Shown piece after piece: positions 9,850 through 60,881 of a DNA stretch of 64,000 bases. This stretch comes from Salinimonas chungwhensis DSM 16280 (GTDB lineage Bacteria; Pseudomonadota; Gammaproteobacteria; Enterobacterales; Alteromonadaceae). Both the position numbers and the translations under genes were made by a program. The stretch is taken from the NCBI RefSeq assembly GCF_000378185.1, contig NZ_KB899376.1, forward strand, positions 462,357-526,356. The letters run 5' to 3'. Positions within the stretch are counted from its first letter, which is position 1, and every line of letters starts with the position of its first letter. The notes below the pieces were generated by a model. The model was not told where the DNA came from. It ran no database searches and saw nothing but the letters and a program-made list of their open reading frames with translations.

Positions 9850-11508
9850 ATGACAACAGAATTTATTTTACCGGATATCGGCGAAGGCATTGTTGAGTGT
9901 GAACTGTTGGAATGGCTGGTGGCTGAAGGTGATACCATCGAAGAAGATCAGCCGGTGGCTGAAGTGATGACGGATAAAGCCACGGTTCAGATTCCTGCAA
10001 TGCATGCTGGTATTGTCAAAAAGCTTCACTACAAAGTGGGTGATATCGCAAAAGTACACGAACCGCTGTTCGCCATGGACATTGACGGTGACGGCGAGTC
10101 CGCTGACGCTGAGCAGGCGTCAGCGAGCGAGCAAAATACGCAAAAGAATGAAGAGGCAACGCCGGGACGTGAAAATAATGCTGCAAAGGACGAAACAGGT
10201 CAGGGCGATATAGAAGACTTTATTCTTCCGGATATCGGTGAAGGCATTGTCGAGTGTGAGATCGTTAAATGGCACGTTGAGAAAGGCGATGTCATTGAAG
10301 AAGATCAGCCGGTAGTCGAAGTAATGACAGATAAGGCCATGGTTGAAATACCGGCAAAACATGCCGGTAAAGTCCATGAGCTTTATTATCAGCAGGGGGA
10401 CATTGCTAAAGTCCATGCCCCATTATTTGCGCTACTTGTGGAAGGTGCTCAATCTTCGGCCACTGAAGCGTCAGGTAGTGATGCTAAGCAGTCATTCTCG
10501 ACAGATCAAAACCAACCAACTCAGCGCAAAGCCGCTGAAGATAAAGCGAGCAACCAAAAATGGCCGGATGGCGAATTTGAACCGCCAGTGGAAATACCCG
10601 GCCGGGTACTCGCTAGTCCGGCGGTTCGACGCGTCGCCCGCGAAAAAGATATTGACCTGACTGCTGTAGAGGGGTCCGGTAAAAAAGGCCGAATTTTAAA
10701 GAAAGATGTGCTGAATATCGGATCACAGCAATCTTCTTATAAGGCTGATGCAGCAAACGTTGAGGGTGAGTCGGAACCGGCTCCGACGACTACGTCAAGC
10801 GGGGGAACGCGTACCGAGCCAGTTAAAGGCATTCGGGCGGCAATGGCGAAACAGATGACGGCCTCGGTGCAGACAATTCCGCATTTCACCGTCAGTGACG
10901 AGTTGCAGATGGATGCGTTAATGGCGCTGCGTAACGAATTGAAGCCGGTATTTGCTGAACAGAATGTCAAACTGAGCTTCATGCCATTCTTTGTTAAGGC
11001 ATTGTCACTAGCGCTGACAGAGTTTCCTGTTATAAACAGTCAGCTAAATGATGATGCTACAGAGCTGACGTATTTTGATGATCATAATATTGGCTTTGCG
11101 GTGGACTCAAAAATTGGTTTGCTGGTACCTAATATCAAGCGCGTACAGGATTTGACCTTATTTGAGCTTGCACAGCAAATGCAGGAAATTATTGATAAAG
11201 CGCGCGACGGTAAACTCGGTGGAGATACGTTAAAAGGTGGCACTATCAGTATCTCTAACATTGGCGCTATTGGCGGCATGACAGCTACCCCGGTAATCAA
11301 TAAACCAGAGGCTGCCATCGTGGCGCTGGGGAAAACGCAGAAGCTGCCGCGCTTTGATGAACATGACAACATTATTGCCCGGCACATGATGCAGGTTAAC
11401 TGGTCCGGAGACCACCGCATTATTGATGGGGCGACTATGGTCAGGTTCAATAATCTGTGGTGCAGTTATCTGGCCAATCCCACCCGTATGTTGATGCACC
11501 TGCGCTAA
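9850..11508 (+). CDS. bkdB: Dihydrolipoamide acyltransferase (E2) of branched-chain 2-oxoacid dehydrogenase, two lipoyl domains
   Basis: 552 residues. Two lipoyl domains (about 1-78 and 121-198), each with an MTDKA motif, put the lipoylated lysines at about K43 and K162. They are joined by Ala/Glu/Gln-rich flexible linkers. Next come the E3/E1-binding domain (SPAVRRVAREKDIDL, about 257-290) and the catalytic domain, ending with the active-site DHRIIDGATMVRF. It transfers the acyl group to CoA. Two lipoyl domains is more than the single one usual in branched-chain E2. No E3 (lpd) follows, so E3 must be supplied from elsewhere. A hairpin at 11517-11546 closes the operon. Confidence 0.93.
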   Translation: MTTEFILPDIGEGIVECELLEWLVAEGDTIEEDQPVAEVMTDKATVQIPAMHAGIVKKLHYKVGDIAKVHEPLFAMDIDGDGESADAEQASASEQNTQKNEEATPGRENNAAKDETGQGDIEDFILPDIGEGIVECEIVKWHVEKGDVIEEDQPVVEVMTDKAMVEIPAKHAGKVHELYYQQGDIAKVHAPLFALLVEGAQSSATEASGSDAKQSFSTDQNQPTQRKAAEDKASNQKWPDGEFEPPVEIPGRVLASPAVRRVAREKDIDLTAVEGSGKKGRILKKDVLNIGSQQSSYKADAANVEGESEPAPTTTSSGGTRTEPVKGIRAAMAKQMTASVQTIPHFTVSDELQMDALMALRNELKPVFAEQNVKLSFMPFFVKALSLALTEFPVINSQLNDDATELTYFDDHNIGFAVDSKIGLLVPNIKRVQDLTLFELAQQMQEIIDKARDGKLGGDTLKGGTISISNIGAIGGMTATPVINKPEAAIVALGKTQKLPRFDEHDNIIARHMMQVNWSGDHRIIDGATMVRFNNLWCSYLANPTRMLMHLR

Positions 11509-58243: not shown

Positions 58244-58860
58244 GGTCATCAGAATAGCCATCGCACAGCTGATTTTGTAGGCGTTGCCTTTAAAGGAATC
58301 TTCGAAGAATTTATGACTTGATGGAGAAAACAACTGCAGCGCATTTTCCAGCATAACACTGAAATAAAGCAACTCAGCGGCAGACCGATAAAAATCGAAG
58401 TCCGATATGTCTGGGTTGCTGAGCTACTTAAAAGCGGCGATGTTCTCAATAAAGTTCAAATCTCTCATTTCATTCCCAGATTATCTTCTAGTGCTTTGGC
58501 TACCGATTGGTATCACGTTGCCAAAACCGGACAAGCAAGGTTGGTGGCCACATGGCATGACTCGTATTGAATGGGTTAAACGGCCAGTCGCTTATCTGGC
58601 TAAATATCTGTCCAAAGACGATGTCGATGCATTCCCAAAAGGCTGTCGAATTATGGGCTGTGGCGGTTTATCTGAGCCGGCCAGAAATGAACGTTGTTGG
58701 TGGTTGATGCCAACCTGGGTAAAAGACATCGCCAGCATCGAGGACAAAACCTCGGCGCGCAATCGGTGGAGGGATTGTGCTGAAAAGCTCAGGTGAAATT
58801 GTGCCGTCGCCTTGGAAGGTGCGCATTACCAACATCGGGATCTTCATTATTAAACAGTGA
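58244..58860 (+). pseudogene. Remnant of a filamentous-phage-type rolling-circle replication protein (Rep)
   Basis: Three frame segments together give one Rep-like protein. Segment one (from about 58244) is broken by a TGA at 58319 and carries WRKQLQRIFQ and IKIEVRYVWVAELLKSGD. Segment two, in another frame from about 58470, carries LVLWLPIGITLPKPDKQGWW (split: LVLWLP, then LPKPDKQGWWPHGM), IEWVKRPVAYLAKYLSK with the YxxK nicking motif, and FPKGCRIMGCGGLSEPARN. Segment three, shifted again near 58770, has GEIVPSPWKVRI and ends at the TGA 58858. The HUH histidine motif expected before LVLWLP is damaged. It is certainly inactive. The type is common in inoviruses that integrate at dif. Confidence 0.75.
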
Positions 58861-58951: not shown

Positions 58952-58985
58952 ATAACGCATAATACTTAACTGCGCATAATACTTA
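58952..58985. repeat. Tandem XerC-arm repeats preceding dif
   Basis: Two 17-bp units sit head-to-tail directly before dif. The unit at 58969-58985 is ACTGCGCATAA plus TACTTA; its first 11 bases are identical to the XerC arm of dif. The unit at 58952-58968 is the same with three mismatches in the arm (ATAACGCATAA plus TACTTA). Each is an XerC arm with a 6-bp centre but no XerD arm, as expected for scars of Xer-mediated integration or excision. Confidence 0.75.
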
Positions 58986-59013
58986 ACTGCGCATAATGTA
59001 TATTATGTTAAAT
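58986..59013 (+). other. dif: Chromosome dimer resolution site dif (XerC/XerD target)
   Basis: 28 bases: XerC arm ACTGCGCATAA (58986-58996), centre TGTATA (58997-59002), XerD arm TTATGTTAAAT (59003-59013). Compared with E. coli dif as I recall it, only the first two bases of the XerC arm differ; the centre and XerD arm are identical. XerC/XerD recombine here under FtsK control to resolve chromosome dimers, so this marks the replication terminus. Confidence 0.93.
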
Positions 59014-59746: not shown

Positions 59747-59786
59747 TCTATCACGCATGATAATTCCAGTTATCATGCGTGATAGA
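59747..59786. repeat. 17-6-17 bp perfect inverted repeat at the recombinase promoter, candidate recombination site or operator
   Basis: Left arm TCTATCACGCATGATAA (59747-59763), spacer TTCCAG (59764-59769), right arm TTATCATGCGTGATAGA (59770-59786): all 17 positions pair. Two inverted arms around a 6-bp spacer is the architecture of tyrosine-recombinase core sites (loxP, FRT, dif). It lies 30 bases before the recombinase ATG and just downstream of a TTGACG (59729) that may be its -35 element, so binding would also repress the gene. Confidence 0.7.
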
Positions 59787-59816: not shown

Positions 59817-60881
59817 ATGAAACTCCCAATTGCCAATGCTGCGTCCTTTACCAGTGAGTATCGTCATGCCGTAAATCAGTATTTCAACGAAATATTCACT
59901 CGTTTGCCCAAAAACACTCAGCGTGCCTACATCAGTGACTTCAATGAGTTTGTAATTTTTTGTAAGCAGTCTGGCTTACCGGGATTTACCGTTTCGTTTG
60001 AGAACAACGAAAACTGTGTAAAACGTTATGTAGAGATGCTGTGCGAATCACCGCTAGCTTACCGAACGATAAAACGCCGGCTCAGTGCGTTAAGCAAATT
60101 TTTACGTATCGCCAAGCTCCCCAACCCCATCATTCAGTCTGTCTATTTGAAAGATTTTGTCCGGCTGTCACTGGCTGAGAATGAAAAATATCAGTTTAGC
60201 CGACATCAGGCGGTACCGCTGACATTGGATTTACTGGAACAAATTAATGATCGTGTTATTCCTGATACACTTTTGGAAATGCGGGATTTGGCGATGGTGA
60301 ATCTGATGTTTGATGCCCTATTACGGGCTGATGAGATTGTCCGTGTTTGTGTTGAAGATCTCGATAAACGCAATAACGCCCTACTCGTTTTAACCTCAAA
60401 AACTGATCAGTCAGGTAAGGGGCAATACCGTTACATTTCTCAGGCAACACTCGACATGATTGATGAGTATGTTAATGAAGCAAACTATGACAAACAACAT
60501 CAGTGCGAGCGCTCTATGGATGATCCAAGAAGAATTAATAAAGGGATTCTGTTCAGACGCTTATCTAACAAAGGACACGCACTCCTTCCTTATGATGAGG
60601 CTAACCAGGGTAAACAAGCCAATAAGTTGGAATACTCCAGCATCTATCGTATATGGAAGCGTATCGCCGGACATGCTCAGATAAAAGAAAATATTACCCC
60701 ACACAGTGGTCGGGTTGGCGCGGCTGTGTCACTGGCTGAGCACGGTGCAACACTTCCAGAGATGCAACTTGCAGGCGGCTGGCGTTCACCGGAAATGCCT
60801 GGTCATTATGGTCAGCAGGCATCGGTAAGCAAGGGTGGAATGGCTAAACTGATTAAGAACAAAAACAAGCCGCGACGATAA
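59817..60881 (+). CDS. Tyrosine-type site-specific recombinase/integrase
   Basis: 354 residues from ATG 59817; in-frame codons back to 59757 lie inside the palindrome and are unlikely to be translated. N-terminal SAM-like domain (about 15-110, LPKNTQRAYISDFNEFVIFCKQSG). The catalytic domain has Arg in FDALLRADEIV, Lys in LTSKTDQSG, HSGR in PHSGRVGAAVSLAEHGA, GGWRS and the nucleophile Tyr in PGHYGQQ, so all active residues are present. It is not XerC or XerD by sequence style. It carries no recognisable cargo and may act on the adjacent 17-6-17 site. Confidence 0.9.
   Translation: MKLPIANAASFTSEYRHAVNQYFNEIFTRLPKNTQRAYISDFNEFVIFCKQSGLPGFTVSFENNENCVKRYVEMLCESPLAYRTIKRRLSALSKFLRIAKLPNPIIQSVYLKDFVRLSLAENEKYQFSRHQAVPLTLDLLEQINDRVIPDTLLEMRDLAMVNLMFDALLRADEIVRVCVEDLDKRNNALLVLTSKTDQSGKGQYRYISQATLDMIDEYVNEANYDKQHQCERSMDDPRRINKGILFRRLSNKGHALLPYDEANQGKQANKLEYSSIYRIWKRIAGHAQIKENITPHSGRVGAAVSLAEHGATLPEMQLAGGWRSPEMPGHYGQQASVSKGGMAKLIKNKNKPRR

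Follow-up and report, generated by a model that had tools for sequence, protein, structure and literature searches.

The window, a 64,000-nucleotide stretch of the Salinimonas chungwhensis DSM 16280 genome, contains a single ordinary dif site (Table 1), and the array of XerC arms to its left is, with good confidence, one private duplication of 17 bp comprising the left flank and an XerC arm, probably produced by slippage. The tandem repeat is genuine, though a curiosity of minor weight. Of greater importance at this locus, in our judgement, is a module of a Cre-like tyrosine recombinase gene and a palindrome about 0.75 kb to the right of dif, which is unrelated to the 17-bp array and conserved in most of the Alteromonas/Salinimonas genus set. 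Its position, co-occurrence and sequence suggest a function, and from these we infer, with the balance of probability evenly poised, that the terminus of this group harbors a second, Xer-independent resolution system built of the Cre-like enzyme and a 13-6-13 site, and that the same family and arms serve large plasmids as their 'dif'.

Table 1. Positions of the features discussed, numbered from the first base of the window.
Feature	Position	Strand	Description
Filamentous-phage replication initiation protein, C-terminal fragment	58407..58796	+	phrog_2969, PF23343
'Unit 1'	58952..58968	+	weak arm-like ATAACGCATAA + TACTTA, best read as ancestral left flank
Period-17 perfect tandem repeat, 2.5 copies	58956..58997	+	overlaps dif XerC arm; TRF, 100 % match
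Extra 17-bp unit	58969..58985	+	second perfect XerC arm ACTGCGCATAA + TACTTA, without XerD arm
Chromosomal dif	58986..59013	+	XerC arm ACTGCGCATAA, centre TGTATA, XerD arm TTATGTTAAAT
Perfect inverted repeat	59747..59786	.	17-nt arms, 6-nt spacer TTCCAG; proposed recombination site
Cre-like tyrosine recombinase gene	59817..60881	+	likely start 59817

The 28 letters of the dif site read ACTGCGCATAATGTATATTATGTTAAAT, exactly as given with their coordinates in a preliminary description of the locus, and differ in the first two bases alone from what we take to be the E. coli dif. A 26-base dif pattern matched once in the window with up to three mismatches (expected 0), and the genome-wide search with up to two mismatches returned one match (G000:C1:521345), so that no better dif was found elsewhere in the genome at this threshold. 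Around the site the polarity of the KOPS motif GGGNAGGG switches: 32 of the 34 copies within 400 kb converge on dif, which lies between the last forward copy at 509511 and the first reverse copy to the right at 531126. The cumulative GC skew, expected to switch at the same place, peaks 23 kb to the right of dif. Genes for XerC (C13:74985), XerD (C3:115880) and FtsK-gamma are all present in the genome. In 5336 of 5426 E. coli genomes a match covered at least 80 % of a 32-base stretch around dif, with 5324 records at 99 % identity or more. Possessing an XerC arm, a 6-bp centre and an XerD arm, being the sole genomic match, sitting at the KOPS switch and accompanied by the genes for XerC, XerD and FtsK-gamma, 58986-59013 is confirmed as the chromosomal dif. 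It shares with the E. coli-type system the 28-bp site, the KOPS switch, both recombinases and FtsK-gamma, and differs from it by one tandem copy of a 17-bp flank plus XerC arm immediately to the left. The earlier judgement that this is 'not a normal dif' is therefore not upheld: the core is intact and ordinary, and the duplication at its left is the sole oddity.

The 42-bp array at 58956-58997 is the better of two TRF arrays in the window. Across 400 kb of the contig, two of 20 arrays with periods of 10-40 reach a score of at least 80 and a match of at least 95 %, the dif repeat included, and a chance origin was rejected on the basis of this rarity and the 100 % match. The locus had been described as three XerC arms with a single XerD arm. 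Two good XerC arms are indeed present, the extra one lacking an XerD arm, but the arm-like sequence of unit 1 carries 3 mismatches in 11 positions against the other two, and a 12-mer arm pattern allowing three mismatches occurs 74 times in the window against 70 expected by chance; the array hence holds two good XerC arms and a weak one. Among 394 genomes of the order, an exact GCATAA 4-30 bases before dif was found in three, namely the window's own and two with other spacings. A similar exact pattern retrieved 13 loci from 84,980 species genomes, a set that may leave out the genome studied here, and none of them has a 17-bp period; by design both exact-pattern searches miss diverged arms and other dif sequences. 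We recognised no description of a tandem XerC-arm array at dif in the literature searched, which left subscription papers mostly outside. In all four Pasteurellaceae loci found (L098, L103, L106 and L109, from Necropsobacter, Pasteurella testudinis, Testudinibacter and Haemophilus massiliensis), the CGCATAA of dif is preceded at exactly 14 bp by another CGCATAA, possibly a conserved half XerC arm.

To place the repeat among its relatives, we compared left flanks across 58 other genus genomes, which include Alteromonas hispanica (G007), Alteromonas stellipolaris (G037) and Salinimonas iocasae (G004); the species of the window is represented by one genome. Dif was called in 51 of them (7 gave no call), and all 51 flanks were used. 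The 17-bp repeat proved private, being absent from every one of the 51, and in none does CGCATAA occur in the 79 bp next to the XerC arm. Immediately before that arm the most frequent hexamer is TACTTA (14/51), followed by TAGTTA and TATATA (4 each) and by TACCTA and TACTCA (3 each), and the consensus of the 51 flanks is CCCCCCTAATCCTCCAAATACTTA, then ATTGCGCATAA. Since TACTTA is the usual left neighbour in the genus, the unit reads better as flank plus arm than as arm plus centre. The 'different 6-bp centre' of the preliminary description is thus an ordinary dif flank, and TACTTA was rejected as the centre of some element of its own. At -80 to -87 from the arm, 12 of the 51 flanks do have CGCATAA, within a conserved stretch containing CCACGCATAAAAGT (e.g. 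L096) that is shared by a subgroup, apparently non-coding and not tandem.

The flanks were then aligned with the window after omission of none, one or two of the 17-bp units, over spans of 24, 30 and 40. Omission of one unit gave the best alignment with 35, 33 and 37 of the 51 flanks, respectively, omission of none with 12, 16 and 11, and omission of two with 0, 0 and 1, the remainder being ties. Of the two closest flanks, L082 scored 80 with one unit omitted against 67 and 59, and L083 scored 74 against 60 and 56. Because removal of a single unit best restores the flank of the relatives, we favour one 17-bp duplication, with unit 1 as the ordinary flank. The sequence CGCATAAT occurs in unit 1 and in the next unit as an 8-bp direct repeat 17 bp apart, and such repeats, if already at this distance, would suffice for one event of replication slippage yielding the duplication. 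The 11 to 16 flanks that align better with no unit omitted speak against a single duplication, and unit 1 is more XerC-arm-like (8/11) than the flanks of relatives; an earlier second duplication may therefore have occurred. The XerC and XerD arms of dif are likewise spaced by 17 bp (11 + 6), and this agreement with the repeat period could be more than coincidence. Lacking an XerD arm and oriented like its neighbour, the extra XerC arm is not expected to act as a recombination core. Dimers should continue to be resolved at the intact dif, and any XerC binding to the extra arm should matter little. From this locus it seems that DNA immediately adjoining dif can undergo duplication with the core untouched.

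A phage trace does exist at dif, as the preliminary description implied. The ORF 58407-58796 matches phrog_2969 (E 1.3e-20, profile positions 215-315 of 346) and PF23343 (E 2.4e-11), and it ends 190 bp from dif on the XerC side. The encoded Rep fragment is 41-42 % identical to proteins of Xanthomonas filamentous phages (9 records: Cf1c, Cf1t, phiLf, phiXv2, XacF1) and 40-60 % identical to those of 9 viral contigs, 7 of which show an XerC-arm-like site by eye. PF23343 matches occur in 19 of 59 genus genomes; besides the window's own genome, they lie 0.4-0.8 kb left of dif in G035 and G031 and 8-10 kb from dif in G032, G040 and G014. The Rep gene beside dif in the two other species has no evident rest of a phage in either G035 (L154 10227-10997), where it is open, or G031 (L155, about 10445-10735), where it has stop codons inside. 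At contig edges G032 has two extra dif-like sites whose XerD arm is altered. One of these is 10 kb to the left of the true dif, a placement that an integrated element would produce, and G032 appears to contain such an element there. Xer-using elements thus probably do visit this dif. The window shares with IMEX scars (Cf1/phiLf-type phages, TLCphi, VGJphi, GGI) a phage gene next to dif on its XerC side, here a Cf1/phiLf-like Rep; it differs from them in having neither an intact element nor a left attachment site that we could find, no clear XerC arm being seen at 56.6-58.4 kb with up to three mismatches. That attachment site may have decayed or been deleted.

It is unlikely, in our view, that the upstream units record the repeated Xer-mediated insertion or loss events proposed in the preliminary description, as leftovers of elements whose attP would consist of an XerC arm and TACTTA without an XerD arm, comparable to TLCphi, where that arm of attP is degenerate. 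The Rep fragment on the XerC side of dif fits such a history, as do the G032 dif-like sites with their degenerate XerD arm at contig edges, and attP sites of the TLCphi type exist (PMC4246890). However, TACTTA is the normal flank in the genus, none of 15 viral contigs containing CGCATAATACTTAAC looked att-like by eye in 75 bases of context (exact matches only), and the repeat is absent from G035 and G031 despite the same Rep beside dif, and from G032 despite its apparent element. One duplication suffices, and the units do not qualify as IMEX attachment sites. Under the single-duplication reading the phage scar would be an event separate from the repeat, although an indirect phage role is possible with a scar so placed; a striking 'array' at dif need not mark the passage of a phage.

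Even less probable is retention of the extra arm by selection, as an accessory array raising XerC occupancy or tuning FtsK-dependent activation. The repeat is perfect with a spacing of exactly 17 bp, and the upstream CGCATAA of the four Pasteurellaceae genomes could be read in the same sense, but the repeat is missing from all the other genus flanks compared and the spacing differs elsewhere. An assembly or sequencing artefact, finally, is highly improbable: the genome is a single draft assembly of 30 contigs, but 42 bp is shorter than an ordinary read and a 916-kb contig passes through the site. A single slippage duplication beside an intact dif accordingly remains our preferred explanation of the array.

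Turning to the module at the right of dif, the palindrome has a conserved core at 59751-59782 of the form TCACGCATGATAA-N6-TTATCATGCGTGA (13-6-13) and ends 30 bp before the likely start of the recombinase, whose ORF opens at 59757, inside the palindrome. The protein is neither XerC nor XerD, which are encoded on other contigs. It matches Pfam Phage_integrase (E 2e-18) and scores far below the cut-offs of the NCBIfam XerC and XerD models (58 and 66 bits versus 335 and 330). All 17 PDB sequence matches at E <=0.001 are Cre (16) or Tre recombinase (1), the best at 7e-13, and matches among phage records include P1 Cre (23 %) and D6 Dre (25 %). Residues R170, K195, H296, R299, W322 and Y331, which we take to be the catalytic R-K-H-R-W-Y set by correspondence with Cre, are invariant in 24 aligned recombinases. 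With these presumed catalytic residues and an inverted-repeat site with an asymmetric spacer close to the recombinase gene, the module resembles a Cre/lox-type system. It shares with P1 Cre/loxP the inverted 13-bp arms, the asymmetric spacer, the Cre-dominated PDB matches and a presumed resolution function; it differs in that the recombinase is about 23 % identical to P1 Cre, that the module is chromosomal and lies beside dif, and that its spacer has 6 bp, whereas that of loxP has 8 bp. No viral contig contained the palindrome in an exact search. No description of this Alteromonas recombinase/palindrome module was recognised in the literature covered, again with subscription papers mostly outside the search.

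Within the 59 genus genomes, own included, the palindrome core was found with up to three mismatches in 37 and a close recombinase in 38 (64-82 % identity besides its own). Site and gene go together: all 37 site carriers have the gene, so that the site is present in 37 of 38 genomes with the gene and in none of the 21 without it. In G017, the lone genome with the gene but no site, a contig ends 254 bases from the start of the gene. The distance from site to dif is 0.6-1.3 kb in 35 cases, with a median of 985 bp. The exceptions are G047, without a dif call, and G013, where 31 kb separates the palindrome from dif and where the lack of KOPS between 2240653 and 2381872 keeps their polarity from pointing to one of the two. 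Among the loci read, the usual arrangement places the gene to the right of dif on the same strand; L060 and L094 have it to the left and in the opposite orientation. The centres beside dif are mostly CTGTAA or CTGGAA. Sampling of 395 genomes of the wider family returned the site in 26, including 4 from outside the genus.

The same arms, around different centres, were also located on secondary contigs of six genomes (G000:C22 of the window's own genome, G004:C2, G022:C18, G025:C8, G034:C9 and G037:C2), of which only G037:C2 and G004:C2 are known plasmids (records CP013927.1 and NZ_CP039853.1), and in all six the second centre differs from the dif-side centre. Plasmid records matching the site number 18 from Alteromonas and one from Salinimonas, some with arm mismatches, and the plasmid centres are GTGTAA, ACGGAA, ATCCGA or CAAGCA. 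A relative of the recombinase (27-29 % identity) is encoded 1-2 kb from the site on pAMDE1, pAlt76 and plas12 and about 50 kb from it on pAM1A3. The search for a relative on pASTE61-200 was negative (best E 0.075), and an annotated 'integrase' lies 3 kb from the site there. On pAMDE1 and pAlt76 an annotated replication-terminus-binding (Tus-like) gene lies no more than about 1 kb from the site; on pAM1A3 it is near parAB, not near the site.

KOPS polarity was analysed for these five of the 19 plasmids. The numbers of KOPS consistent with convergence at the site were 24/26 for plas12, 21/21 for pASTE61-200, 12/14 for pAlt76, 16/21 for pAMDE1 and 8/8 for pAM1A3; in the same order, the share of terminus positions scoring as well was 0.08, 0.024, 0.15, 0.086 and 0.19, and 0, 0, 11, 38 and 15 of 500 polarity shuffles reached the observed value. 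The evidence from each plasmid's convergence alone is modest, and all five agree, the single site falling inside the KOPS-convergence interval each time. Origins implied by KOPS are at or within about 2 kb of replication/partition genes on the three plasmids checked (pAMDE1, pAlt76 and pAM1A3). The GC-skew terminus agrees clearly with the KOPS result only for pAlt76 (63.5 vs 64.1 kb). It deviates by 12 kb on pASTE61-200, and it conflicts with KOPS on plas12 (239 vs 160 kb), pAMDE1 (148 vs 95.5 kb) and pAM1A3 (34 vs 129.7 kb), the last of which has its skew 'origin' near the site. The best dif-like sites on the five plasmids score 15-17 of 20, within the shuffle maxima of 15-18, and the palindromes themselves score 11-12, compared with 20 for the window dif. 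Dif-like XerC and XerD arms were thus not detected on these plasmids. The arrangement shares with the XerCD xrs/dif2 sites of megaplasmids and chromids the large replicons, a single site in the KOPS-convergence interval and replicon-specific centres, and differs from them in that the palindromes are not dif-like and accompany a Cre-like gene. For pAM1A3, GC skew speaks against a second resolution system and the absence of dif speaks for it.

If such a system operates, the Cre-like recombinase would act at its own site about 1 kb from dif, in the zone processed by FtsK, and the same family and arms with replicon-specific 6-bp centres would serve large plasmids as 'dif'. Cells would then have XerCD/dif and Cre-like/lox-like systems operating side by side at the terminus. 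In Enterobacteriaceae all replicons above 250 kb carry an FtsK-controlled XerCD site, according to PMC11724359. On the 126-348 kb plasmids of the present group, a Cre-like enzyme with a non-Xer site appears to fill that role, and a copy is retained next to the chromosomal dif. Were this true, whether FtsK/KOPS can serve a non-Xer recombinase would become directly testable, and the group would be a source of naturally occurring Cre/lox-like recombination with 6-bp spacers. A reading of the palindrome as a mere operator of the recombinase gene is disfavoured, because plasmid sites stand 1 to 50 kb from the gene and pASTE61-200 has the site with no relative found. Short GATAA-N6-TTATC palindromes precede the plasmid-borne recombinase genes on G000:C22, plas12 and pAlt76 (L221 10925, L222 10433 and L240 7088), and hence autoregulation by the same enzyme may exist too. 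A third copy of the palindrome was observed on the Alteromonas stellipolaris chromosome (G037:C1:4277151-4277182), 3 Mb from dif; it has a plasmid-type centre and one arm mismatch, and is perhaps a captured piece of plasmid.
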